A stretch of 42,161 bases of DNA from Microbacteriaceae bacterium. Its GTDB lineage: Bacteria > Actinomycetota > Actinomycetes > Actinomycetales > Microbacteriaceae. The notes below the pieces were generated by a model. It did not search any database. It was not told the DNA's origin and worked only from the letters and a program-made list of their open reading frames with translations. Shown piece after piece: positions 4,165 to 20,045 of this stretch. Location: positions 1 through 42,161 of the forward strand of contig CANGGK010000005.1 of NCBI GenBank assembly GCA_947453475.1, given 5' to 3'. Within the stretch, counting starts at the first letter, position 1. Every line of letters begins with the position of its first letter. A program made the position numbers and the translations under genes.

Positions 4165-5076
4165 GTGGACCTACAAAAAATCATCCTGTATTACGGCTTC
4201 GCTCCTGTTGCCGACCCAGTCGCTCTAAAGCTTTGGCAGAAGACTCTGTGCGAGTCGCTCGGGCTAAAGGGTCGCATCATCATTTCTGAGCACGGCATTA
4301 ATGGCACCCTCGGTGGCGACATGATGGCCTTGAAGAAGTACGTTCGTCAGACCCGCGAATACCCGGGTTTCGGCAAGATCGATTTCAAGTGGTCTGATGG
4401 CACCGGCAATGATTTTCCTCGCCTTTCGGTGAAGAACCGCGATGAGCTAGTTGCTTTCAAGGCCCCGGATGAAGTGAAAGTCGACAAGTCTGGAGTCACC
4501 AACGGTGGCAAGCACCTAAAGCCAGCCCAGGTCAACAAGCTGGTTGAAGAACGTGGCGATGAGGTCGTCTTCTTCGATGGCCGCAACGCATTCGAAGCCA
4601 AGATTGGCAAGTTCAAGAACGCTATCGTTCCCGATGTTGAAACTTCACACGACTTTATTGCCGAGCTTGAATCTGGCAAGTATGACCACATCAAAGACAA
4701 GCCAATCGTCACCTACTGCACCGGTGGCATCCGTTGCGAGATTCTTTCTGCTGTCATGATCAAGCGCGGTTTCAAAGAGGTTTACCAAATTGATGGCGGC
4801 ATCGTTCGATATGGCGAGACCTTTAAAGACAAGGGCCTCTGGGAGGGTTCGCTTTACATCTTTGATGACCGCATGGTTCAAGACTTCAGCGATGAAGCCA
4901 AGGTAATCGGCGAATGCGAGAGCTGCGGTGGCCCAACCAACTCGTTCCGCAACTGCGCGAGCGTGGGCTGCAAAGACCTAGTTCTGCTTTGCGACACCTG
5001 CTATGCCGACCCAGCCCACTCTGAGCACAAGCCGACCCACACCCGCGGTAAGCGCCACGCTCAACAAGTCGGATAA
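4165..5076 (+). CDS. trhO: tRNA uridine(34) hydroxylase, rhodanese-family TrhO (UPF0176)
   Basis: A 303-aa protein matching the TrhO/YceA family in length and architecture. The N-terminal alpha/beta domain starts [13 protein letters not shown] and contains [11 protein letters not shown]. The central rhodanese domain has the active-site loop YCTGGIRCE, with the catalytic Cys in CTGGIR. The Cys-rich C-terminus ([23 protein letters not shown]) is typical of the family. TrhO hydroxylates U34 of certain tRNAs to ho5U in an oxygen-dependent reaction. The GTG start is chosen because the TAGAAT -10 lies 6 nt upstream and the N-terminus aligns with the family. It stands alone between a divergent peptidase gene and the exported-protein block. 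Confidence 0.92.
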
Positions 5077-5146
5077 CCGCATAAACTCAGGGTTATCCCC
5101 TATTTTTGTTCGTTTTTGATGCCCCAACCGTGTATTTTTTGGGGTT

Positions 5147-6617
5147 ATGACTAGTTCACTAAACCTCAAAAAAAATCATCTCAGTTGGCGCCGCCGCGTT
5201 GCTCGCCATCGGCACAAGCGTCGCTTCGTCCGAGCCTGCCATGGTTCTCAACCCGACTCCACTTGCTCTGTCACGCATCGACAACTGGGGGCCTAGCATC
5301 CAGCAGGTTGGCCAAACTGCGTCAAACGCGATGGTGATTGTGCAGCCAACGTTCAACTTCTTCTCAATCGCTTCTGGAACGCCGACCTTTGAAGTTCACT
5401 GGTTTGCTTGTACGAGTGCCCAGGCCAACATCTCATCTGACGTGACCGATGGTGTCTTTGCAAACACCTTGCCAGCGGGTTGCACTGAAGTTGCCGGTAC
5501 ACAAACCAACGACTCATACACTGCGACTTCCTCTGAGCAAGGTAAGTACCTTGGCGTATGGACCAAAGCGACCGTTGCCGGAGACTGGCGTGCAGTGTGG
5601 TCAAAAACCACCTCTGCTGCTCTCATTGGTGCCCCAGTAGCCCCTGTCGTTAGCACTGGAAGCCCGGCCTCTGCAAACCTTTCAGACACCGGAGTAACAA
5701 TCAACTACAGCGTTTCGACTGTAGGTAACCTCGGGTGGTCAGTGCGTGCGGCAGCGTCAGCCGCGCCAACCGTCTCGAACCTCTCGACCTCAAGCTGGCA
5801 GTCAGCTGACCTAGTACACGGGCGAGCAACCCTTATGTCTTCGGGAGCCGGTAACTTCTCAGTGACTGGGCTAACAGCAGGCACTGACTACGTTGCTTAC
5901 ATTGGCGTAATCGGCGGTGGCGGAAACTCAAACCTTTACAGCTTCGCCTTCACAACCACCGGAGGGTCAAGCTCAAACCCGGTAAGCGCTCAGCCTCCAG
6001 TTCTAACGCCTGAGCAGGCCAAGAACCAGATCAAGCCTCTTCCGGTGATCGTGCAGCCACTTGTTGCCGCGCTTCCAGCCCTAAGCAAGCCGCTGGTTGA
6101 TGCCGGAGGCAAGGTTGACCTAACCGCAGGTGACTTCACCGGTTTGGTTTCGGCGTCAATCTCGGGCAAGCCACTTGACCTAACCGTTGCTTCGACCGGT
6201 GGATTAACCATCACCGTTCCAAACGGTAAGGCCGGCACTACCGCTGACTTGCTACTTAACTTCAAGTCAGGAACCGTAATCCTCCAGGATGCAATCAAGT
6301 ACATTGCACCAGTTGTGGTTTCAGCTGTTCCTGAGCGTTCGGTTTCAATTTCAGCCGGTTCGGCCAAGCTAAGCGACGCAAGCGCGAACCAGATTCGCCA
6401 GGCGGCCTTCGCCAACATGGCCAACACCAACATTGTTTGCGTTGCTTATGCGGCAAATGGATCAGCGGCTGCGAAGGCTGCCGCACTGGCAACTGCCGAG
6501 CAGGCTTGTGCATTGGCTACCAAGGCGAACCCAAACCTAGTTGCAGCACCGGTAACCGTCATCGTCAACAAGGCGAAGGCAAAGACCTCGGCTGTTGGCA
6601 TCAAGGTTTACCACTAA
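5147..6617 (+). CDS. Secreted Fn3/Ig-like protein with its signal peptide out of frame across an A8 tract
   Basis: The open frame given is 5199-6617, but it lacks a proper start; only a TTG is available and it falls inside a signal-peptide-like sequence. An ATG at 5147 opens another frame (MTSSLNLKK). If one A is removed from the eight-A run at 5168-5175, this joins the long frame to give MTSSLNLKKIISVGAAALLA, a classic signal peptide with a cleavage-like SVA|SS site. As written, the ATG frame ends after 49 codons (stop 5294-5296). The mature part has a Cys-containing beta-rich domain, an Fn3-like segment (GLTAGTDYVAYIGVIG), and an Ala-rich C-terminus (ATAEQACALATKANPN) faintly reminiscent of an OmpA-like tail. 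The function is unknown; the context suggests a surface or secreted partner of the giant protein. The shift may be slippage-regulated, a true mutation or a sequence error. Confidence 0.7.
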
Positions 6618-6631
6618 CAGTTCGTTAGCTA

Positions 6632-6673
6632 AAAGAAATCCCCTCCTGGCAGGCGCCGGGAGGGGATTTCTTT
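6632..6673. terminator. Bidirectional intrinsic terminator between convergent genes
   Basis: A perfect 15-bp inverted repeat (AAAGAAATCCCCTCC / GGAGGGGATTTCTTT) with a GC-rich inner hairpin (GGC/GCC). It has A-rich and T-rich flanks, so it can act on both strands. It lies exactly between the stop of the 472-aa ORF and the stop of the giant gene. Confidence 0.9.
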
Positions 6674-6682
6674 ATGTCTGAG

Positions 6683-9600
6683 CTACTTGTTCACTTGAAC
6701 CATGTAGGTAACCGCAACGTCTACTCGTCGTGGCGTAGGGTTGCCTGGCAAACTACGACCGGCGCCGAACACCTTGAAACTGGCTTTCAAACCTAGCTTC
6801 TTGAACTGAGCAACTATCGCCGCTGCACGAGCCTGAGATAGCGCGACCTCGGCGTTAGAAACCTTGGCACTGGCGCTGTAGATGTAACCAATCGAACCGA
6901 CCTTGATGTTGGTGGCACCCTTAGGAATCTTCTTCAAGAAGGCCTTAATGGCGGTCAACGTTTTGGCAGTGATTGCCGACGAGTCAGGGTTGAAGCTGTA
7001 AGTTGCACCCAGTGACTTGGTGGTGGTTACTTGGAAAATAACCGGAAGGTTGGCACTTCTAACCTGGCCCTCTGGAGTGTATCCGTTCACCTGGATGGTG
7101 TGCAGGCCGACCAAACCATAGTCGCGAATTGGCAGCGATGCATCGAAGGCGCCGTTGGCATCCGTGGCGATGTTTCCAACCATGATTGGCTCAGAGAATA
7201 GGTTAACCAGCACCATGGAGTTCGGCTTGAATCCTGAACCGGTTAGGCGAATGAAGGTCGCCTTGTCGATCACAACTTGGTTCTTATTGATCAAAATCTT
7301 TAGAGTTCCGTCAACTCCAATGGCGCGAAGCTTGAGGTCCCACGCCTTAAGAGTAAGAACCTCTGCACCAAGCGCCTGTTCGAAGGTAAGGGCATATGTT
7401 GCATAGCTGCCACCATTGGTAGCCGCCTGGCCGTAACCCACTGGCGGTGCCGGGTTTACCGCAATCGGAACCAGTGGAGGCAGTGACGGTGCGCCTCCGT
7501 TTGATGATGGTGGTGAAACAACCGAAGCGCGCTCTGTTGAAAGATTCTCGGCACGTGCCTGAACATTCGCACTCGGAGTCGCACTGTTCCAAGCAACGAT
7601 GGTGAAGTAATAGGTGGTGCCTGCGGTTAGACCGGTGATGGTCTCAGAGACCTGCTGGTCAAGCGTCGAAGCGAGTACGACTGCGGTCGTGGTCTGGGTG
7701 CAACCAACGAGACTCGCGTCTGTCGAGTAGCAGAAGTAGTAGCTGGTAACTCCATTGCCCGGGTTTACAACACCGTTCAAGGTGGCGCCAGTCTGTGAAA
7801 TTGCGGTTGCTCCGGTTACTGAAGCGGTAGGCGCGGCAACCACTTCAAGGGTGAAGCTTTGCGATGTTGCGTTGCCGTCATCATCCATGACAGTGACGAT
7901 GAATGAGTAGGTTCCCGGAAGCGAGATGCTGCCGGTGAGAAGACCGCCATTAGAAAGGCTCAGGCCGCTTGGCAACGTGGTTGACGACCAGGTGTATGGC
8001 GACACGCCACCGGTGTTGGTGAACTGGAAGTTCGCTGAAGCCAGCGCCGTCAGGCTTGAGGTTGCTGCAGAGTAAATCGTCAGCGCCGCAGGTGCAGCAG
8101 CAGTGTCGAAGTTCAGAACTGTTCCAAGCGTGGTGCCCTCAGAGTTCGTGGCAACGATTCTGAAGTAATAGCGAGTTGCAGCGTCAAGGCGCACTAAATC
8201 AGCAGCAACGGCAACCGCTACGTCTGGTGTCGCAGCAATACTCGAAGGAGTCGAGCTGACCGAGACGCAGGTTCCATCGCAGGTTGCAAGGTCGGCCTGG
8301 GTTACCGAGTACCAAATTCGAACCGTCGTGGTCGCATACCCACTCTTTACCGAACCAGAGAGTGTAGCGCTCTTGTGAGTTACCGCTGAAGCTGCGTTTT
8401 CGGTTACCACTGGGGTACCGAAGACCTCTATGGTGAATGACTGCGTAACTGTGGCAGCACCGTTGGTTACCGAGACAGTAAAGGTATATGAACCATACGC
8501 CGTGGCACTTCCAGAAATCACACCGGTTGAACCAGCAAGAGCCAAGCCGGTAGGTAGAGCCCCGGCGGTGATCGACCAGGTTAGTGATCCACCTGCTCCA
8601 CCGTCGGCAGTGAGTGTCTGGTTATAAGCTGGGCCACCGACGCTGGTTGAAGGCAAGCTCGAACTCGTGATGGTTAGGTTTGCCGGTGGCGCATCGGTGG
8701 TGAAACTGATCTCAGCAGGTGCTGTGGCGCTTCCGGCAGCATTTGAAGCCGAGAAGTTCACGTAGTAAGTCGTCGAGGCAGACAAGCCAGATAGAGACTT
8801 GGTAACGGTAACGTTGGCGCCACCAGCCTGCCCAGCTGAATAGGTGAGGTTAGGGGTGCAACTCTGGCTTGTGCTGACGCAATAAAGCACGGTAGTCGCG
8901 CTGGTACCCGGGTTGAAGGTGAGGCTAAGCGTAGCTGCGGCAGAGGTGATGCCTCCGGTTGCATTTACCGCAAGAGTCGGTGCCGCAATGACAAGAAGGT
9001 TTAGCGACACTGAATCGTCAGAGGTTCCGAGTGAGTCTGAAACGGTGAAGACGAGGTCAACGTTGGCGGTTGCCGTCGGTGTGCCCGAGATCAAACCGGT
9101 TGCTGCATCCAGAGAAAGTCCGGCAGGCAGCTGACCTGTCTTAACCACCCAGTTGGTGTAGCTGCCTGAGCCGCCCGAGGCCACGAGTTGCTTGCTGTAG
9201 CTGGTTCCAACAACACCAGCGGTAAGCGACGAGGTTGATAGGTCTAGTGCAGCCAAGGTTGTCAATGAACGGGTTGCCATCGTCGTGGTTCCGTAGTTGG
9301 TTGCCTTGATTGCGTAGTAGTAGGTAGTTCCAACCGAGAGGTTGATCAAGTTGATGGTCAGGTCGGTAGCGCCGGCTGCCGCACTCACGGTTGCAACGTT
9401 GGTGAAGGTGCAGCTAGCGAGGTCTGCCTGAACCGCTCTTACACAATATGAAACCGTGGCACTTGCGTTATTTGGGTTGACGTTGAAGTTTAGAGTCGCC
9501 GAGGTAGAAGTCTTGCCGGTTACCGAGCCAAAGGTGATGGTTGGCAGGTCTGAAACCGCAATGGTCAAGTTTGCCGAGTCTGCAGTCGTGCCAGCGGCAT

Positions 9601-12600
9601 CCGTGACGGTAACTACAAAAGTGCTGTTTCCGACGGTGGTCGGGGTGCCCGATAGCGCACCGGTCGAAGAGTTGAGGGTTATGCCGTCAGGGAGCGCACC
9701 AGAGGTGACGGCCCAACTTGCGTATGGTGTGACACCACCCGTGGCAGCAAGCGAGCCCGAATAGCTCGAACCGACATGGCCAGCCCCTTGGGCGCCTGAA
9801 CTGGTGACTGCAAGGTTGGCTACCGTGGTGAAACTTGCCGCAGCGGTGACAACACTGGTGTTGGCAGCGTTAGAAGCCTTGACTACGTACCAATAGGTAG
9901 TGCCGGCATTTAGACCGGTGATTGTTGCTGCCGGGTGGCTCGTAGAACCCGCCGAAAGCGTTGTGATCGATGTGAACGAAGAGCAGGCATTGGCCAGGGC
10001 TTCGGTGGTTGCAACACAGTAACTTACCGCCGTTGAAAGGTTGCCGGTGGTGACCGACCAGTTCAGGGTCGCCTGGGATGTGGTCTGGCCAGAAATTGAC
10101 TTGCTCACGATAACCGGAGCCGCACCGACGGTAACGGTGTAGACCAACGTAGCGGTTCCAGAAACCGAATCGGTTACGTCTACGGTGAACTGGTAGGTGC
10201 CAGCTGTGGTCGGTGTACCCGACAAAACACCGTTACCCGAAACGGTGGTCATGCTTAGACCCGGTGGTCTAGTTCCGGTTGTTGACCAGGAATACGGTGA
10301 GGTTCCACCGGTAGCAGTGAAGGTCTGGCTATATGAAGTGCCGACTGTCGCCGTGGAGTTGCTGGTCGGAGTAATGGCTAGGTTTACCGGAGCAGCATCC
10401 GTGGTGAAGCTGCTGCTGATGGTAGAGGTTCCACCTAGGTTGGTTACCACTACTCGGTAGTAATAGGTGGTAGCTGCCGAAAGAGCCGAAAGGTCGATGC
10501 CGACCGCGGTTAGACCAGAGGTCGCTGCAATCTTGTTAGAAAGGTAAGTCAAAGTACAGGTAGCTACCGCGCCCTGAGATGTTGAGTAGCAGTACGAAAC
10601 CGTGGTCTCGTAGTACTGAGGGTCAACGGTTACGTTTAGTGTTCCGGTGGCATAGGTGATGTTGGATTCAGCTCGACCGTTGATCAGTGGCTTCGCACCG
10701 ATTCTTAGGCTAAATGCCTTAGTTACCGGGGTCGATCCGCCGTTATCGTCCAACTGGATGGTGAAGCTGAAGTCACCAATTACAGACGATGTGCCGGTAA
10801 TGGTTCCGTTCATCGCGTCTAGTGTCAAACCGCTTGGAAGCGCACCCGAGATTAGCGACCAGGTGTAGGTTGGCGCGTTTCCATCAGCGTCCGAACCGCC
10901 GGTTCCAGCCAGAGTGGCACTGTAGGCGGTTCCGCGATATCCACTGCTCAGTCCGCTTGAAGTAGTGATTCCCAGCGCCGATGGAGTCGTGAAGGTAGCC
11001 GCCGGAGTTGTTGCACCGCGGATGCTCGAGCCAGTAGAAGACGTGCCACTCGAGGTAGACAGAGTTGACGACAGCGAAGCAGACCTAAACGTTGCAGTTT
11101 TCAACGATGCCGTGGTTACACCGCTCGGGCTAGCTGCGTTGATGACTCTGAAGCGGTAGTAATACTGAACGCCTGGAGTCAAACCGGTTACGCGTTGAAC
11201 GAGAGTGTAGTTTCCGTCAGCCTTAAGGCCACCGGCTGGCAGATCGCCAGTGAAATCTGTCCACAAGGTACAAGTCGAAACTGCGGTTGCATCTGAGCCG
11301 AAGCAGTACGAGACCGTCGAGAGCAGGTTCTTAGGGTTTACATCAAGAACGATTTCTGCAGACTTAGTAGTTACCTTCTGCACGCGCGTTGAAGCGATTG
11401 CAGGCGGAGCACCGACGACGATCGTGAAGATCACCGAGTCGGCGGTCACCAAGCTGCGGTCTGTTACACGCACCTGGAAGCTGTAGTCACCGGTGACAGT
11501 CGGAGTTCCACTGATGACACCGAGGCTCGAAATGGTCAAACCGGTAGGCAGTGAACCGCTGCCCGAAATCAAAGCAAAGGTATATGGCGTCGTTCCACCG
11601 CTGGCGCTAACCGCTTGGCTATAAGAAGTGTTAAGAGTTGCGCGCGGCAGAGTCTGAGTCGAAATACCAACGGCATTCACAGTTACGAACGAGCTCGCAC
11701 CCTTTGCGCTAACCGTGCCCTGCGAGTTAATCGCACGAATGAAGTAGTAGTAGGTGGTGTTCGGCGTTAGACCCGTGATCAAAACTGGTGTCGTGATCTG
11801 CGATGCTGCCGAGTCAACCAAGAAGTCGACCCAGGTTGCACAGTTCGCTGTGGTGGTAGCCACGTTTGTCGAGACGCAGTATGCGTAAGTGGTCGAGAGG
11901 TTACCCGAGTTGCCATAGAACGAAACCAGTGCAGTCGTTGGGTACACGGTGGCTACCGAATATGTTGCAGTTAGGTCGATTACCGGAGCACCAACCACGT
12001 TCATGGTGATTGTTTGAGTGACGACCGTCGAGTTCGCGTCAGTTACCTGAACATCAAAAGTGTATGAACCCGAGGCGCCATCCGTGCTCGAAGTAGTTGC
12101 GGTCGGAGTTCCCGTCAGAACACCCGCAGAACTTAGCGATAGGCCAATCGGCAAAACGCTGCCCGAAGCTAGTGCCCAGGTGTATGAAGGGCGCCCACCG
12201 GCAGCCACCAAGGATGCGCTGTAAGCCGAACCTTCAATACCCTGAGAAACGCTGGTGGTGGTGATTGAAAGCGGTTGAGGTGCGATGGTCAATGTGAAAG
12301 TCGCGTTCACGGTGGTGCTTGCCGAGTCGGTCACGCGAACGGTAAAGGTGTAGTCACCGGCATCAGTCGAGTTTGGAGTGCCTGAAAGCACACCTGAGGT
12401 CGAGAGGCTCAGGCGACCAGGAAGGTTGCTGCTGACCATTGCCCATGAATAACCGCCGGTTCCATTGCGGGCAACCAATTGGAAGGAATATGAGCTCATC
12501 GCGGTAGCGGCGGTGAAGCTTGAAGAAGTGGTGACGATGGCCAACGGCAAGACCACGGCCGCAATAACGATTGAAAGTGACTTAGTCGCAACCGAAGCCG

Positions 12601-15600
12601 CAGAGTCAGTCGCAACCAGTGAGAAGTTGAACGTTCCCGCGAGAGTTGGAGTTCCGCTGATAACACCGGTTGCAAAGTCAATGCTCAGACCATTTGGAAG
12701 GCTGCCCGAAACGCTCCATAGAACCGGATTCAAACCGCCGCTGTACTGAGCGGTCTGGGAATATGACTGACCTACAGTGCCGCCGGTGAAGCTTGTCGTG
12801 TCGATGCTTAGCGGAGTGGCCGAGCCAGCACTTGTGAAGTTTCCGGTCGAGTAGACGGTGCCAAGGGTGTTAATTGCCTTGAATGAGTAGTAATACTTCG
12901 TTCCAGGCACAAGTCCGGTCAAACCGAAGCTTGGGCTAGCCGAGGTTGGGCTTGCTGAGTAGCTGCCAACCAGCTGATAGGTGCAAGTAGATAGGTCGCT
13001 CGATACCGAGTAGCAAATGTAAACCGAGGTAGAAAGGTTTCCGGTGTTCAACGAAACGTGAGTCGTTGCAGAAGCGGTGATGTTCGGCGAACTTCCCGCG
13101 GTGGTGCTGCCAGAAATCGCGGCCGGGGTCAAGGTCGGTGCAGCCGTAGCGGCACCCGTTGTAAACGAAACAGCAGATCCGCCGGCAGAAACCGTTCCGA
13201 TGCTGGTGGTTGCACTTAGCCAGACGTAATAGGTTGTGGCCGCAGAAAGGCCGGTGGCTACCGCCGTTACAGTGACTGCTGAAACGCTAGCCGGCAGGTT
13301 TGCCAACAAGATTGGAGTGCAGCTAGCAAAGGTCGTGGTGGTGCCGATGCAATACTGCAAATTGGTTGTTTCTAGACCGCCAGGGTTTACTGTGCCGACC
13401 AGCTGATAACTGGTTGCCGACTGGCTCACCGGAGTTCCGACGGTAACAAGCGGGGCACCGGTGGTCATGAACGTGTACTGGTCACCGTAGCCAACTCCGG
13501 CAGCATTCTTAGCAATGATTCGGTAGTAGTACAAGGTTCGAGTCGTAAGGCCAGTGATGGTTGCAGACACATCTTGATCGGTCGAGTCAGCCGTGAGTGT
13601 GATCACGCCGGTGACCGCCGAAGGTGGGCTAACCGGATATGCACAGTCAGTGGTGTTCGCTGCAATCGCGTGAGTCGAGTAGCAGACGGTATAGGTAGTG
13701 GCAATACCGCCTGGGTTAACCATTCCCGAAACGGTGCCGATTGTGCTGGTCACATCGAGGACGACATCGCTAACTACGCGTGGAGCAACTGACGCTGTGA
13801 ACTTCGTTGCGGCGTTCGAACTAATCGGAGTGGTCGAGTAACCGGTTCCGATTCCATTCACTGCGATTAGCTGGAAGTAATAGACACTGCCATTGGTCAA
13901 ACCAGTTAGTAAAGCAGAAACATCGACCGGCCCTGAGGTAGCAACCGTGTTATTTACGTTTACACGACTTGTGCCCAGCGAACAAGTCGAAAGCATGCCA
14001 CCCGAGGTGGTGGCTACCGTCGAGTAACAAACGTAAATGCTTGTGGTGCCCGACAAGAAGTTGTCTACGGTTCCGGTGACACTGGCAGAGGTGGCGTCAA
14101 TAAGGGTTGGCGCGTTTACCGTCACCACTGGCGCAAGCGATGTCACGAAGTTGACAATCGAACCGACCACTAGGCCGTTTCCGTTGTTCACTCGAATTTG
14201 GTAGTAGTAAGTCTTGCCAGAAAGCAGCCCAGATGGGGAGTTGCTATAGGTAGTTGAAGTTGTGGCGGTCAGAGAGGCCGCTGTGGTGCAGGTGGTGTTT
14301 GCCTGCAGTGTTGGGTCTTGATATGAGTAGCAGAACTGAACAGCGTTTGTGATTGGTGATCCAGAAGACGCGGCCAAACCACCCGAGGTTGAAGTTCCGC
14401 GCAATGACCAGCTAGTTCCAGAACCAGTAGCGGCGCTTGTAGCGACTACCGACTTACCGGCAGCGATTGAGTTCGTTGCAAGTGTCAGCGTGAGCGTGCC
14501 ATTTGAAACGCCAGAAACCGATGATGCGCCTGTGATCGTACAAGTGGCCGCGGTCATAAGTGCGGTCGGCGTTCCGCTGAGTAGGCCGGTTGCGGTGTTA
14601 AAGGTCAAACCAGCATTTGAAAGCGCGGTGGTGCAGGTCGAGTTGCTTATTGAATAACTCAGAGCTGCGGTTCCGCTGTTGTAGATCGTGTAGGCACTCG
14701 CAACTGGCGTGCCAACGGTTAGCCCCGAAAGCGTGTAACTGGTTACCGAAGACGAGTTGCTGTAACTCATGGCCATAGCTGCTGCCGAAGAAGTTACGGT
14801 AAGGGTGAATGTGCGAGAAACATTGCCTGCTGCCGAAAGTGCAGTCAAGGTGTAAGTGGTTAGAGACAGAACAGTGGTTGTCGTTCCGCTCAATTGGCCG
14901 GTGGCTGTGTTGAAAGTCAAGCCCGCAACCGTGCTCACTGCGTTACCTGAAGAATCGGTCAGGGTGTAGCTGGTGATTGGGTTACCCGAAGTGGTAATGG
15001 TGAATGGGTTTGAAACCACAACACCCTGAGAGTAAGAAAGCGAAGATGGCGAAAGCGACATGGTTGGCGCTTGAGAAACGGCCACGGTAAAGGTCGCAGT
15101 GGCTGCCGAATAGGTTGCGTTACCAGCTTGTGTAGCTGTGATCACACAAGTTCCATAGGCAAGAGCTGTAAGAACTAGAGTGCTCGGGTTTAGTGAACAA
15201 ACCGTGTTGTTTCCGGTGGTCACAGTGAGGCTGGTCAAAGCCAACTGGCTCGTCGGGTCGAGCGTGACTCGAAGAGTTTGAGTCGCCGAGCTCGTTCCAA
15301 CCGTCGCAGTTGCCGAGCCAGCTACAGCAATAACCTGAGGGGTTCCAGCAACGGTCAGCCAGAATGTTGCCGAGGTGAAACTGGTCGCGTTCGACGCAGT
15401 AATTGTGTACTGGGTTCGAGCGCTGGTTACCTGAGCAACGCTATTACTTATGACTCCATATACCGGGTCGAAAACTAGGCCGGTAGGAAGCGCAGGTGAA
15501 ATCGTATAGGTTGCTGTTCCACCGGTGTTGATTGTGTCGAACGGTAGTGAGAAAGGCTTGCCTACGGTCAAGACCACTTCAGTGTTGGTTAGCGAAATAC

Positions 15601-18600
15601 TCGGTGCTGCAACGGCAGTTGTCACGCTAAACGATTTGCTCACCGATGGTGCAGCATTGAACGCCTTGTTGTCTCCGGCCTGAGTTGCCGTAATGGTGCA
15701 AGTTGCTGGCGATGAGCCACCCACTGAAAGTGCGGTCACGGTGCCGTTGGCATTGATGCGGCAGATGGTCGGAGTGCTCGTTGTGTAGGTAACCAACATT
15801 CCACTAGATGCAGTTGCACCTAGGCCTTGGTCGGCCTGGTTAAGCACCATCGCCTGAGGCTGATCAAACGTGATTGTCTGGTCAAGAGCATTGATGGTAA
15901 GCGTGAAGTAAAGGCGGTTAGAAGCCGTGCCGTTTACGTTGTAACCAATGATGTAGTAAGTGGTCTTTAGCTGTTTCGCCTCTGGTGCTCCCGAAAGAAC
16001 ACCCGTGGTCGAATCGAACGCGAGGCCATCCGGTGTAGTTAGCACTTCACCGGCAGCATCGAACAGGCGGTAGGTTGCCGCTGTGCCGGCGGTGTCAGAG
16101 AATGAAATTGCCGACGGGTATGAGGTTTGAACCGTCATAACCTTGTCGGCTGAAGTGTTGGCGGTGAGAGCCAAAACAGGCGTTGCCGCACCGAGCACGA
16201 AGGTAGTGGTTACTGTTCCCTGAGCCCAAACCGTTGAGTTACCTGCCTGCGTAGCTGTAATCGAACAGGTTCCTGAACCGGTCGAGATTACCGGAGTAAC
16301 CACACCGGTGGAAGAGTTGACAGTACAAACGCCGGTGCTGTTGCTGACGAAGGTAATCGGCGTCAAGTTTGACGAAGCCGAGGCAACCAAGGTGATTGGG
16401 TTGGCCAAGCTGGCAACGTTTGCCTGAGGCATCGTAATCGTCTGAGCGCGACCGGTTACGGTGATTGACACTGCCTGAGTCGTGGTTCCCTCACTGTTAA
16501 TGAGGTTCAGCGTGTAACTAGTGGTTGCAGTAATCGCTGTCGGAGTTCCGGTGAGCACACAGTCGAGGGAGTCTAGTGTCACTCCCGCTGGAAGAGTGTT
16601 ACCGGTAATGGTGCAATAGGTTGCCGCGTAGCTTGTGCTGGTGCTTGTGTAGTTGATGGTTGGCGAAGTTACCGGGGTTCCAACCGGCACTGAAATCGTG
16701 CTGTTGGTAATGGTTGCGCTCGGCACACCGAGCGTCGCTCCAGAAGTTTTAGTGAAGTAGGCGCTACGCGCCGAAGTCACTGACGACGCCGAGAAACCGT
16801 TGGCCGAATCAGCCGCCTGCATTGCAAAAACAAAGCAAGTCTTTGCGCTGCTGCTCGTGCTTGTGCGGAAGTAGCGCAAGTACACGGTTCCACCCAGGTT
16901 GAACAGCTGGCAGCTATTAGATGTGGTAGGCACCACATACGAGGCATTTGGTGTAGCCCCAGATTGCTGGTAGCTAGTCGAAGTGAAAGTTGCTGCCGTA
17001 ACTGTTGGCGCAGTCGAACCAGAGCTGTAGGCCGCATAGAACATGATCGGCTTGTTTGGGTTCGTCGAAGTTGCGCGCAGTGGAATCACATAACCACTCG
17101 GCACGCCAGCGGTAAGAGTTGGTGCGGCCGGCGAAGAGCTGGCGATGGTGTGCAGAGAGACACCGAGATAGTTTTGACCGGTCACCGTTGGGTACGGGGA
17201 AGGGAAGGTAATTACCGGTGTCTGGGCGGCGGCAGCGGTGATGTTGAAAGTGACCTGGATGGTTGCCGTTTCAGAGGTCGCTGCGTTAGTTGCAGTAAAG
17301 GTGACAACGGTGGTTCCCTGCGCAGTTGGCGTTCCGGTGAAACCTCCAGTGCTAGATGCAATGGTCAACCCTGCCGGCAAAGTGGTGCTTGTGTAGGTAG
17401 CAGTTCCACCGGTGTTGGTGATGACATACGGTGCATTGGCTGAGGTGTAAGCAGTGCCAACATTCAGGGTCACCGAAGCATTGTTGACGCTAAGCACCGG
17501 AACAGTTACTGCGCTAGCGGGTGACGAAGCAGAACCTGAACTATTTGTTGCTGTCACAACTACTTGGTAAATCAGAGCCGCGTTGGTGCCAGGGATCTTG
17601 AATGTGTAACGGCCACCGGAAGTAGCAGGGCAGTTTGTGGTCACGGTTCCAACGGTGCAAGTAGCGGTTACCGAAGCACCACCATTAGTTGGAGTCGCGG
17701 TAAGAGTGTAGGTTGCAGGCGAACCACCGGTTGCGGCCGGCGTGAAGGCAACATTCAGTGTGGTGTTAGTGGTTGGGTCACGCAAGACAGTCGGTTGGCT
17801 AGGTGCTCCTGGCGGCAAAACCATTGAAGAGCCAAGCTGAATGTCGATATTGTTTGTCGCACTCTGTGCGAATACCGCATCATCGGTGACAGTGGTTTGA
17901 ATCGTAAATGCTGTATCGGCCGTGCCTAACGGCGGTGATAGAACGAGGGTTGCCGAGCGAGGGCTGACACCCTTTGTCCAAGTGAAGGTAGCCCAACTTG
18001 GCAACGTGTTTGTTGTCCAAACCAAGTTCTGAGCCGCATCGGCATCCGTGGCCGAGTAAGAAATGGTGGTGGTCGAACCTGCTGTAATCGTTATTCCCGC
18101 GCCGGTAGGTGACGAGCGAGTGATTACTGGAGCGTGGTTAGTTGGGTCAGACGCAAACTGTAGAAGCACATCTCGAGTTACGTACTGATTCGCACTGTCT
18201 TTGGCCAAGGTCTTAAGCACGTAAAAGATCGGTGCGGTTGGAGTGCCACCCGAGAATGCGGTCACATAGTTTTCGGTTCCGACACAAAGGCTCGAGCTGA
18301 TCTTGAATTCACCGGTTGAAGTGTTCAGGTAAGAACAAGGTATTTTGCTTGCACCGTAGCCACCGAGACTTGCCGTCTGGTCGGTAACCAAGCTGTAAGT
18401 TACCGAGCTACCGGTCTGCGAGAGCGCATTGAGGTTAGTTGTGAATACGGCAGAGGAGCTTACGTCGTAAGGAACGTTGGTTAGATAGCCGGTGTTGTAT
18501 GACGGCGTGGTATTTGAACCTAAGAAGCTCACGCGACCGGCAAACTGAATTACCTGGTTAGTGGTGTTCTTAATGCCGGCAATTCGGTTGCTGCCGGTTT

Positions 18601-19057
18601 GGCTGAATACGTAGTCAAAAGCTGTGGTGAAGGTTGGGCAAGAAACATCAACGACGTATGTGGTGGTGAAGATGTTAAAGAGCGGGTCTGATGTGCCATC
18701 AAAGTTTCTGTAAGTAGGTGCGGTATTTTGACCGGAACACATTTTGATGGTCGACACAGTCGCACCCGATGTGCGGTCAACCTGGGTGATTGTAGGGAAC
18801 GGGAAGAACGTACACATGCTGTTAGTAGCAGAGTAAGTAGTACAAGCATCCTTGCGCTCGACCATGGTCGAGTTGACGGTGACAGTCTTAGCCTTGGCGT
18901 CGTAGCTGACGGTACCAACGGCACCGCGAAGGTGGGTTGCCTGAGCCGGGGCAATTCCAGACAAGGCCATCAATAGAGCAAGCATCAAACCCAGCACAAG
19001 TTTGATTGCCGAGGTTGAACGGTCAGCACCAAAAAGGGTGCGTCTGACTGAGAACAC
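6683..19057 (-). CDS. Giant modular surface protein (~4,124 aa) with Ig/Fn3-like repeats and an OmpA-like C-terminus
   Basis: The ORF track starts at a TTG (19090). I prefer the GTG at 19057, because AAAGGGG lies 5 nt upstream and it gives a compact signal peptide (IKLVLGLMLALLMALSGIAP, then AQA|THLRGA). Architecture, in ORF-track numbering: an N-terminal THLRGA-type domain with an Ig-like domain (to about 430); Ig-like and ITATQAG-type repeats (about 450-1550); then alternating putative-Ig modules (LPxGLSL..GxLSGTPT..YxFTVxVTD, 16 counted overall) and Fn3-like modules (CYS...C...GLTxGTTYYY, 13 counted) to about 3,860; a Pro-rich linker; a beta-sandwich domain; and an OmpA-like domain (LSQARAAAIVAQFKKLGL...PRRVDV). 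The likely role is a very long cell-surface adhesin or stalk. No LPXTG motif is present, so the OmpA-like end may hold it to peptidoglycan (inference). It is the largest gene here, with Thr/Ser-rich composition. Confidence 0.88.
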   Translation of the reverse strand: MFSVRRTLFGADRSTSAIKLVLGLMLALLMALSGIAPAQATHLRGAVGTVSYDAKAKTVTVNSTMVERKDACTTYSATNSMCTFFPFPTITQVDRTSGATVSTIKMCSGQNTAPTYRNFDGTSDPLFNIFTTTYVVDVSCPTFTTAFDYVFSQTGSNRIAGIKNTTNQVIQFAGRVSFLGSNTTPSYNTGYLTNVPYDVSSSAVFTTNLNALSQTGSSVTYSLVTDQTASLGGYGASKIPCSYLNTSTGEFKISSSLCVGTENYVTAFSGGTPTAPIFYVLKTLAKDSANQYVTRDVLLQFASDPTNHAPVITRSSPTGAGITITAGSTTTISYSATDADAAQNLVWTTNTLPSWATFTWTKGVSPRSATLVLSPPLGTADTAFTIQTTVTDDAVFAQSATNNIDIQLGSSMVLPPGAPSQPTVLRDPTTNTTLNVAFTPAATGGSPATYTLTATPTNGGASVTATCTVGTVTTNCPATSGGRYTFKIPGTNAALIYQVVVTATNSSGSASSPASAVTVPVLSVNNASVTLNVGTAYTSANAPYVITNTGGTATYTSTTLPAGLTIASSTGGFTGTPTAQGTTVVTFTATNAATSETATIQVTFNITAAAAQTPVITFPSPYPTVTGQNYLGVSLHTIASSSPAAPTLTAGVPSGYVIPLRATSTNPNKPIMFYAAYSSGSTAPTVTAATFTSTSYQQSGATPNASYVVPTTSNSCQLFNLGGTVYLRYFRTSTSSSAKTCFVFAMQAADSANGFSASSVTSARSAYFTKTSGATLGVPSATITNSTISVPVGTPVTSPTINYTSTSTSYAATYCTITGNTLPAGVTLDSLDCVLTGTPTAITATTSYTLNLINSEGTTTQAVSITVTGRAQTITMPQANVASLANPITLVASASSNLTPITFVSNSTGVCTVNSSTGVVTPVISTGSGTCSITATQAGNSTVWAQGTVTTTFVLGAATPVLALTANTSADKVMTVQTSYPSAISFSDTAGTAATYRLFDAAGEVLTTPDGLAFDSTTGVLSGAPEAKQLKTTYYIIGYNVNGTASNRLYFTLTINALDQTITFDQPQAMVLNQADQGLGATASSGMLVTYTTSTPTICRINANGTVTALSVGGSSPATCTITATQAGDNKAFNAAPSVSKSFSVTTAVAAPSISLTNTEVVLTVGKPFSLPFDTINTGGTATYTISPALPTGLVFDPVYGVISNSVAQVTSARTQYTITASNATSFTSATFWLTVAGTPQVIAVAGSATATVGTSSATQTLRVTLDPTSQLALTSLTVTTGNNTVCSLNPSTLVLTALAYGTCVITATQAGNATYSAATATFTVAVSQAPTMSLSPSSLSYSQGVVVSNPFTITTSGNPITSYTLTDSSGNAVSTVAGLTFNTATGQLSGTTTTVLSLTTYTLTALSAAGNVSRTFTLTVTSSAAAMAMSYSNSSSVTSYTLSGLTVGTPVASAYTIYNSGTAALSYSISNSTCTTALSNAGLTFNTATGLLSGTPTALMTAATCTITGASSVSGVSNGTLTLTLATNSIAAGKSVVATSAATGSGTSWSLRGTSTSGGLAASSGSPITNAVQFCYSYQDPTLQANTTCTTAASLTATTSTTYSNSPSGLLSGKTYYYQIRVNNGNGLVVGSIVNFVTSLAPVVTVNAPTLIDATSASVTGTVDNFLSGTTSIYVCYSTVATTSGGMLSTCSLGTSRVNVNNTVATSGPVDVSALLTGLTNGSVYYFQLIAVNGIGTGYSTTPISSNAATKFTASVAPRVVSDVVLDVTSTIGTVSGMVNPGGIATTYTVCYSTHAIAANTTDCAYPVSPPSAVTGVITLTADSTDQDVSATITGLTTRTLYYYRIIAKNAAGVGYGDQYTFMTTGAPLVTVGTPVSQSATSYQLVGTVNPGGLETTNLQYCIGTTTTFASCTPILLANLPASVSAVTVTAVATGLSAATTYYVWLSATTSIGTVSAGGSAVSFTTGAATAAPTLTPAAISGSTTAGSSPNITASATTHVSLNTGNLSTSVYICYSVSSDLSTCTYQLVGSYSASPTSASPSFGLTGLVPGTKYYYSFKAINTLGTVYSTGNFTSAGSATPLSIDTTSFTGGTVGQSYSQTAQYSGGLNPVLWSVSGSLPNGLSIDFATGVISGTPTLAGTFNFSLVATDSAASVATKSLSIVIAAVVLPLAIVTTSSSFTAATAMSSYSFQLVARNGTGGYSWAMVSSNLPGRLSLSTSGVLSGTPNSTDAGDYTFTVRVTDSASTTVNATFTLTIAPQPLSITTTSVSQGIEGSAYSASLVAAGGRPSYTWALASGSVLPIGLSLSSAGVLTGTPTATTSSTDGASGSYTFDVQVTDANSTVVTQTITMNVVGAPVIDLTATYSVATVYPTTALVSFYGNSGNLSTTYAYCVSTNVATTTANCATWVDFLVDSAASQITTPVLITGLTPNTTYYYFIRAINSQGTVSAKGASSFVTVNAVGISTQTLPRATLNTSYSQAVSASGGTTPYTFALISGSGSLPTGLTISSLGVISGTPTVTGDYSFQVRVTDRSLVTADSVIFTIVVGAPPAIASTRVQKVTTKSAEIVLDVNPKNLLSTVSYCFGSDATAVSTCTLWTDFTGDLPAGGLKADGNYTLVQRVTGLTPGVQYYYRFRVINAASPSGVTTASLKTATFRSASLSSTLSTSSGTSSTGSSIRGATTPAATFTTPSALGITTSSGLSSGYRGTAYSATLAGTGGSDADGNAPTYTWSLISGALPSGLTLDAMNGTITGTSSVIGDFSFTIQLDDNGGSTPVTKAFSLRIGAKPLINGRAESNITYATGTLNVTVDPQYYETTVSYCYSTSQGAVATCTLTYLSNKIAATSGLTAVGIDLSALSAATTYYYRVVVTNLGGTSTISSSFTTDAAPVNLAITPTSNSTATVGTSYSQTFTATGGTSPYSWSTTGTRPPGLSMTTVSGNGVLSGTPTTAGTYQFTVDVTDSVSGTATLVYTVTVGAAPVIVSKSISGQTTSQATLNWSVTTGNLSTAVSYCVATTEALANACSSFTSITTLSAGSTSHPAATITGLNAGTTYWYVVKASNAANTSVVTAAASFTTVANLAVTSSGAQGAGHVGSSYSGSLAATGGVTPYASWAVTSGALPDGITLNSSTGALSGTPTTVGNSTFVVTVTDAAGTTADSANLTIAVSDLPTITFGSVTGKTSTSATLNFNVNPNNASATVSYCVRAVQADLASCTFTNVATVSAAAGATDLTINLINLSVGTTYYYAIKATNYGTTTMATRSLTTLAALDLSTSSLTAGVVGTSYSKQLVASGGSGSYTNWVVKTGQLPAGLSLDAATGLISGTPTATANVDLVFTVSDSLGTSDDSVSLNLLVIAAPTLAVNATGGITSAAATLSLTFNPGTSATTVLYCVSTSQSCTPNLTYSAGQAGGANVTVTKSLSGLSASTTYYVNFSASNAAGSATAPAEISFTTDAPPANLTITSSSLPSTSVGGPAYNQTLTADGGAGGSLTWSITAGALPTGLALAGSTGVISGSATAYGSYTFTVSVTNGAATVTQSFTIEVFGTPVVTENAASAVTHKSATLSGSVKSGYATTTVRIWYSVTQADLATCDGTCVSVSSTPSSIAATPDVAVAVAADLVRLDAATRYYFRIVATNSEGTTLGTVLNFDTAAAPAALTIYSAATSSLTALASANFQFTNTGGVSPYTWSSTTLPSGLSLSNGGLLTGSISLPGTYSFIVTVMDDDGNATSQSFTLEVVAAPTASVTGATAISQTGATLNGVVNPGNGVTSYYFCYSTDASLVGCTQTTTAVVLASTLDQQVSETITGLTAGTTYYFTIVAWNSATPSANVQARAENLSTERASVVSPPSSNGGAPSLPPLVPIAVNPAPPVGYGQAATNGGSYATYALTFEQALGAEVLTLKAWDLKLRAIGVDGTLKILINKNQVVIDKATFIRLTGSGFKPNSMVLVNLFSEPIMVGNIATDANGAFDASLPIRDYGLVGLHTIQVNGYTPEGQVRSANLPVIFQVTTTKSLGATYSFNPDSSAITAKTLTAIKAFLKKIPKGATNIKVGSIGYIYSASAKVSNAEVALSQARAAAIVAQFKKLGLKASFKVFGAGRSLPGNPTPRRVDVAVTYMVQVNK

Positions 19058-19119
19058 AGTCACCCCTTTCATGGGCCGTTCCGCCATCAAATCAGCAACC
19101 CCCAGTTGCCTTACTTAAA

Positions 19120-19280: not shown

Positions 19281-20045
19281 TCAGTTGTTAGTGATCGGTG
19301 CCGGAGTTGCCGTGGTTGACGGAACCCAACCTGAACCACCCTTATCGCCACCGCGTTCGCCGTGTGGGCCGTGTGGGCCACGGCCAGCTTCAGGGCCCTT
19401 GCCCGCATTTGGCCCGCGGTCACCCTTTGGTGCCTTGCCATCTTTAGGTCCGTGGCCTAAACCAGGAGCCTTGACATTTGCGTCGTATGTTGCGGTCAGG
19501 GCAGTCGCCGAGGTTGCGGTTGCCTTACCGGCAGAGTCAACGACGATGGTCACTAGATCTGCAGTGGCGTCACTGCTAGATGTGTAAACGGCGACGTTGT
19601 AGGTTCCGGCGGTTTTCGGCGACAAAAATCCTAGGGTTCCGGCGACGGTTCCATTAGTTAGTGATGCTGCCTCGAAGCGGGCCGGGTGACCCCCGGTGGT
19701 TGGCTGAGTGGTCGGAGCTGTTCCGGTGTATTCATATGCAAAGAACATCGCGCTGTGCTCTGCGACTTCTAGATCAGTTACGGTGCTTGGCACACCGGTA
19801 ATGGTCGCTGCGACGGTTGACTCAACCCGATCGGCAGGAATGCCGCCCTTGAACTTACCGTCGGTAGCGTCACCAGACTTGCCACCGAAAACTGGCGCGG
19901 TTTCGGTAGCGCCCGCCGACGAAGACGATGCCGCCTTGAACGAGTGGTGCTTTGCAGATGCAAAAGATGGGGCTGCAAAAGCTGCCCCGGCTAGAACTAC
20001 TGCTCCGGCTGCAACTGCAGTGAGCTTTAGTGTCTTCTTTTTCAT
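19281..20045 (-). CDS. Small secreted protein with a Gly/Pro/Lys-rich C-terminal tail
   Basis: A 254-aa protein of unknown function. It has a clear signal peptide (MKKKTLKLTAVAAGAVVLAG, cleaving near ASA|KHH). A Ser/Thr/Ala-rich stretch and a beta-rich middle domain with Ig-like character (GTLGFLSPKTAGTYNVAVYT) follow. The tail of about 45 residues is low-complexity and basic, rich in Gly, Pro, Lys and His (GPNAGKGPEAGRGPHGPHGE), and loosely collagen-like without strict Gly-X-Y register. It ends in a Thr/Pro/Ala-rich stretch. The start is supported by AAAGGA 6-7 nt upstream of the ATG. It has its own terminator and lies between the giant gene and the divergent fhaA operon, so it is a plausible member of the surface-protein block. 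No family was recognised. Confidence 0.75.
   Translation of the reverse strand: MKKKTLKLTAVAAGAVVLAGAAFAAPSFASAKHHSFKAASSSSAGATETAPVFGGKSGDATDGKFKGGIPADRVESTVAATITGVPSTVTDLEVAEHSAMFFAYEYTGTAPTTQPTTGGHPARFEAASLTNGTVAGTLGFLSPKTAGTYNVAVYTSSSDATADLVTIVVDSAGKATATSATALTATYDANVKAPGLGHGPKDGKAPKGDRGPNAGKGPEAGRGPHGPHGERGGDKGGSGWVPSTTATPAPITNN

Follow-up and report, generated by a model that had tools for sequence, protein, structure and literature searches.

We report a giant secreted surface protein of 4,135 amino acids, encoded in a genome that we infer to be that of a species of the freshwater genus Rhodoluna (Microbacteriaceae), whose C-terminus is predicted to fold as an OmpA-like domain. In the reading that we favor, with some reserve, the protein is a giant adhesin or stalk and this basic tail is the module that anchors it non-covalently in the wall, working independently of diaminopimelate (DAP) and probably by electrostatic attraction. 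The gene lies in a stretch of 42,161 nucleotides (the window; contig CANGGK010000005.1), and the features discussed below are as follows.

5147 to 6617, plus strand: convergent neighbor, a secreted protein gene with a basic end and a very weak match to the tail family
6683 to 19090, minus strand: giant secreted surface protein gene, 4,135 amino acids, single open frame
18938 to 19090, minus strand: signal peptide, cleaved after ...IAPAQA (residue 51; read from the translation)
18101 to 18937, minus strand: N-terminal THLRGA domain, residues 52 to 330
7544 to 17488, minus strand: module array at residues 535 to 3849, with 16 modules of putative-Ig (He_PIG) and 13 of Fn3 type (Pfam, self-profile)
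7391 to 7513, minus strand: Pro-rich linker (read from the translation)
7031 to 7390, minus strand: beta-sandwich adjoining the candidate anchor domain (AlphaFold strands, 2 to 119)
6686 to 7030, minus strand: OmpA-like C-terminal domain (profiles, AlphaFold, Foldseek)
6878 to 6880, minus strand: codon of Tyr4071, aligned with the DAP-contacting Asp271 (G-H-T-D; profile alignments)
6827 to 6829, minus strand: codon of Arg4088, aligned with the DAP-contacting Arg286 (LSxxRA), a position that is Arg in all aligned domains

The whole protein is encoded without interruption by one minus-strand frame, with a likely start at the ATG at 19087 or 19072 rather than the TTG at 19090. A frame of 4,000 codons is far too improbable to be of chance origin, and the uninterrupted frame with a signal peptide given in the preliminary description is confirmed. 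The junction between signal peptide and mature protein, read directly from the translation, is LVLGLMLALLMALSGIAPAQA followed by THLRGA. The THLRGA domain had no match in the PDB or NCBIfam and was not found in any other of the 149 genomes searched in the order. Across the array, Pfam matched He_PIG (E value, 9e-97) in 15 stretches, together with fn3 and related Fn3-like models. An iterated self-profile gave 13 Fn3 and 17 Ig calls, one of the latter overlapping an Fn3, which leaves exactly the 16 and 13 modules counted previously; the two types alternate from residue 2274 to residue 3849. The DNA of the modules has diverged between copies, so a collapsed-repeat artifact is unlikely. The signal peptide and the long tandem beta-sandwich array are those of a giant Ig/Fn3 stalk. 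Reading of the translation also confirmed the absence of LPXTG noted previously, and there is no C-terminal transmembrane segment; the protein does not have the C-terminal LPXTG-like motif, membrane helix, and basic tail by which sortase-anchored proteins are recognized. No sortase was found in the assembly of the window genome (82.8% complete).

Upstream of the giant gene (19281 to 20045) lies a small secreted-looking protein with a Gly/Pro/Lys-rich C-terminus and no clear family. On its other side, the convergent neighbor carries a net charge of +6 over its last ~95 residues (versus −4 for the rest), and this end matches the tail family in register but very weakly; its single-sequence fold model is poor (mean pLDDT, 47). 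At the start of this gene (5147 to 5199), the ATG at 5147 is out of frame with the signal-peptide frame across a run of eight A's. This could be an error of assembly or sequencing, or else the homopolymer could switch the gene by slippage. The two convergent surface-protein genes are separated by a long inverted repeat (6635 to 6670; AAATCCCCTCC...GGAGGGGATTT), typical of what would be a shared two-way terminator. A simple terminator scan between the genes returned none, probably missing the repeat because of its loop length.

AlphaFold modeled the last 235 amino acids with a mean pLDDT of 82.5, as a beta-sandwich followed by the beta-alpha-beta-alpha-beta-beta order of the OmpA superfamily. 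The best Foldseek matches of the C-terminus were OmpA-like domains (target-normalized TM-scores), namely, Pal (4g4w, 0.71), Acinetobacter baumannii OmpA with DAP or a DAP peptide (3td4/3td5, 0.67), and OprF (5u1h, 0.64). A sequence profile of the tail found ArfA/Rv0899, PA0833, YiaD, Pal, and OmpA (E value, 1e-12 against PDB chains), and the Pfam OmpA model (PF00691) scored 23.0 bits with the single protein and 28.2 bits in a genome search, against a cutoff of 27.2. The OmpA-like layout previously seen in the letters, for which structure prediction had been proposed as the check, is thus borne out by AlphaFold and Foldseek. OmpA-like domains elsewhere also work in motors, lipoproteins, and secretion systems; the case for the tail as an anchor is made from its position, its reuse on diverse secreted proteins, and its charge.

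As to position, the beta-sandwich that precedes the tail (weak NCBIfam match, GxPGS [PGS family Ig-like] domain) has homologues within the order that are followed by something else. Three of these (L012, L014, and L025) end in LSSTG, LSHTG, or LAHTG plus a transmembrane segment and an Arg tail, and their genomes encode 3 to 5 sortases each; two more (L008, of the same genus, and L016) end in a plain transmembrane segment. The OmpA-like domain in Rhodoluna occupies the place of these LPXTG-like or membrane anchors, and this placement supports the earlier proposal of a secreted giant stalk or adhesin held by an OmpA-like C-terminus. Two single-contig, 99%-complete genomes of the genus (G017 and G149) have tail proteins and no sortase. 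Of the genus genomes tested, however, roughly half do have a sortase, which weakens the idea that the tail is a mere replacement for a lost sortase.

As to reuse, three further secreted proteins of the same genome (1,556, ~1,829, and 611 amino acids; contig C2) have unrelated bodies and end in the tail, and a fourth (1,780 amino acids) matches the tail family marginally. The window tail as a lone query gave no match against the genome contigs. A 23-sequence profile, searched in genus genomes at least 85% complete plus the window genome, matched 26 of 37, with up to 6 matches per genome; R. lacicola had 5, one of them within a 2,584-amino-acid frame. Members are 14 to 38% identical to the window tail, with fold and charge mostly kept, and in almost all genus cases the OmpA-like domain ends no more than 10 residues before the stop. 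One genus protein (L011, 410 amino acids, minus frame) has the domain inside the protein, with ~270 further residues after it; by eye this stretch resembles a GH16-type glycosidase, and the gene lies next to that of another tail protein. Two named relatives of the tail come from Microbacteriaceae metagenome-assembled genomes. In the window genome, large secreted proteins form another cluster (L080 and L081; G000, contig C2, 12000 to 51999), with HupY/LrrG-like leucine-rich and glycine-rich bodies and basic ends akin to the OmpA-like tail. One relative (L027) has two adjoining long genes (4380 to 7586 and 7667 to 10675) that both end in the beta-sandwich and OmpA-like tail, which suggests tandem duplication.

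As to charge, the last 110 residues of the window tail hold 16 Lys/Arg and 3 Asp/Glu. Genus medians were +11.8 per 100 amino acids in the tail versus −1.9 in the upstream region (up to 500 residues preceding the tail), with a basic tail and the same direction in all 34 proteins (Wilcoxon test, P = 1e-10), a P value overstated because the sequences are related and not independent. Asp-bearing C-terminal OmpA domains elsewhere did not differ from their upstream regions (−1.4 versus −1.1 per 100 amino acids). Basic charge is by itself a weak argument for specificity.

Under the favored reading, the giant protein would be exported by Sec as a stalk-like surface protein, after which its tail would remain non-covalently in the monoderm wall. 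Charge, not DAP recognition, would hold it there, on an anionic wall polymer or on acidic groups of the B-type peptidoglycan. The N-terminal head would then lie outermost, where it may help the cell to adhere to particles, to polymers, or to other cells. A wider reading, which we regard as possible rather than probable, makes the tail a general sortase-independent wall-sorting module of Rhodoluna and some other Actinobacteria; the OmpA fold would hold secreted proteins in a DAP-free wall via an anionic polymer, as a plug-in used in place of LPXTG and membrane anchors.

The giant protein has no covalent or membrane anchor, and the domain is internal in L011, both of which would fit release of the protein into the water, with the basic tail serving export, folding, or oligomerization. 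We consider release unlikely, given that the tail takes the exact place of the relatives' anchors behind the same beta-sandwich and that Sec-exported proteins require no C-terminal sorting tail merely to be released. Docking of the tail on another surface protein (e.g., an S-layer or membrane protein) instead of a wall polymer seems less likely again: the largely retained fold and charge of such dissimilar members and the Arg conserved throughout could be read in its favor, yet the same divergence speaks against a single specific protein partner, and an unsystematic look beside the tail genes noticed no conserved partner gene.

A classical OmpA-type anchor would grip the DAP stem of peptidoglycan, as A. 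baumannii OmpA or mycobacterial ArfA does. The DAP contacts in A. baumannii OmpA are Asp271 and Arg286 (PMC7573547). The Arg286 column was Arg in 117 of 117 aligned domains. At the Asp271 column, the last position of GHTD, the window protein has Tyr; all but one of the genus homologues likewise have a residue other than Asp there, mostly Lys, Met, Tyr, Phe, His, Gln, Glu, or Thr. The DAP grip implied by the preliminary description therefore keeps its Arg and lacks its Asp, and it was a replaced Asp that had been named beforehand as speaking against it. DNPR is the mark of DAP-adding MurE enzymes, and the MurE of the window genome and that of R. lacicola have DHHPRFEDP (DHHPR) in its place. The peptidoglycan of R. 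lacicola, the Rhodoluna type species, is of the B2-beta type and contains 2,4-diaminobutyric acid, not DAP (PMC4156110). With the Asp lost and the wall DAP-free, a classical grip by the window tail is unlikely, judging from these residues and the wall type of its relative, and we give this explanation the least credence despite a fold close to DAP-bound 3td4/3td5 and the retained Arg and LSxxRA motif. Through its retained Arg, the tail may nevertheless bind a stem-peptide carboxylate.

Two simple accounts of the Asp loss were set aside. That a DAP-free wall is its sole cause was rejected because the pattern does not simply track wall type: short OmpA proteins of other Microbacteriaceae with non-DNPR MurE (DFHPR or DLNPR) keep the Asp, and families f51, f54, and f55 have lost it although their MurE is DNPR. 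A tie to protein length was dropped because nearly all of the 19 long-frame matches from other families keep the Asp; at least 480 amino acids lay upstream of 43 of 58 Asp-less and 1 of 59 Asp-bearing domains, counts biased by how the loci were drawn.

The overall interpretation in the preliminary description is partly supported. The claim that such surface display would be uncommon in Actinobacteria did not hold, with PF00691 matching 152 of 297 genomes of the order and long proteins with an OmpA-like end also occurring in other actinobacterial families; for these two reasons the architecture is not unique. Three such families (f34, f44, and f47) share the long body, the OmpA-like end, and a mildly basic character but, unlike the window tail, keep the Asp (GHTD, GSTD, and GYTD) and have DNPR-type MurE. 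With the PF00691 domains of A. baumannii OmpA, Pal, OprF, and ArfA/Rv0899, the window tail shares the predicted fold, LSxxRA with its Arg, and the terminal RRV strand; it differs in having no Asp at the DAP position, a shortened loop before the last strand, a strongly positive charge, and a location at the very C-terminal end of secreted proteins of great length. The giant sortase-anchored (LPXTG) adhesins of Gram-positive bacteria likewise have a signal peptide, a long Ig/Fn3 stalk, and a C-terminal anchor, and in L012, L014, and L025 a homologous beta-sandwich stands before the LPXTG-like signal, whereas the giant protein has no LPXTG, C-terminal membrane helix, or sortase and its anchor would be non-covalent. 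GW, LysM, and similar modules are basic and bind walls non-covalently. Like them, the tail is basic, terminal, and reused on many secreted proteins, but its fold is unrelated and its wall binding is putative. A literature search of open-license papers found no description of the tail architecture or of how small-genome freshwater Actinobacteria retain giant surface proteins. What is new is the tail family itself, basic and Asp-less and common to many secreted proteins. The genus concerned is streamlined, its type species has a wall without DAP, and some of its members have no sortase.

R. lacicola is cultured and gene-editable (PMC11577799), and since it also has tail proteins and a measured wall type, the idea is open to direct testing. 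A single surface protein takes up more than 12 kb in free-living freshwater Actinobacteria whose genomes are tiny. If an anchor independent of DAP and sortase is confirmed, it would add a reusable anchoring module, show an OmpA fold still working after losing its signature ligand residue, and provide a tag from which to predict the proteins that abundant lake bacteria carry on their surface.
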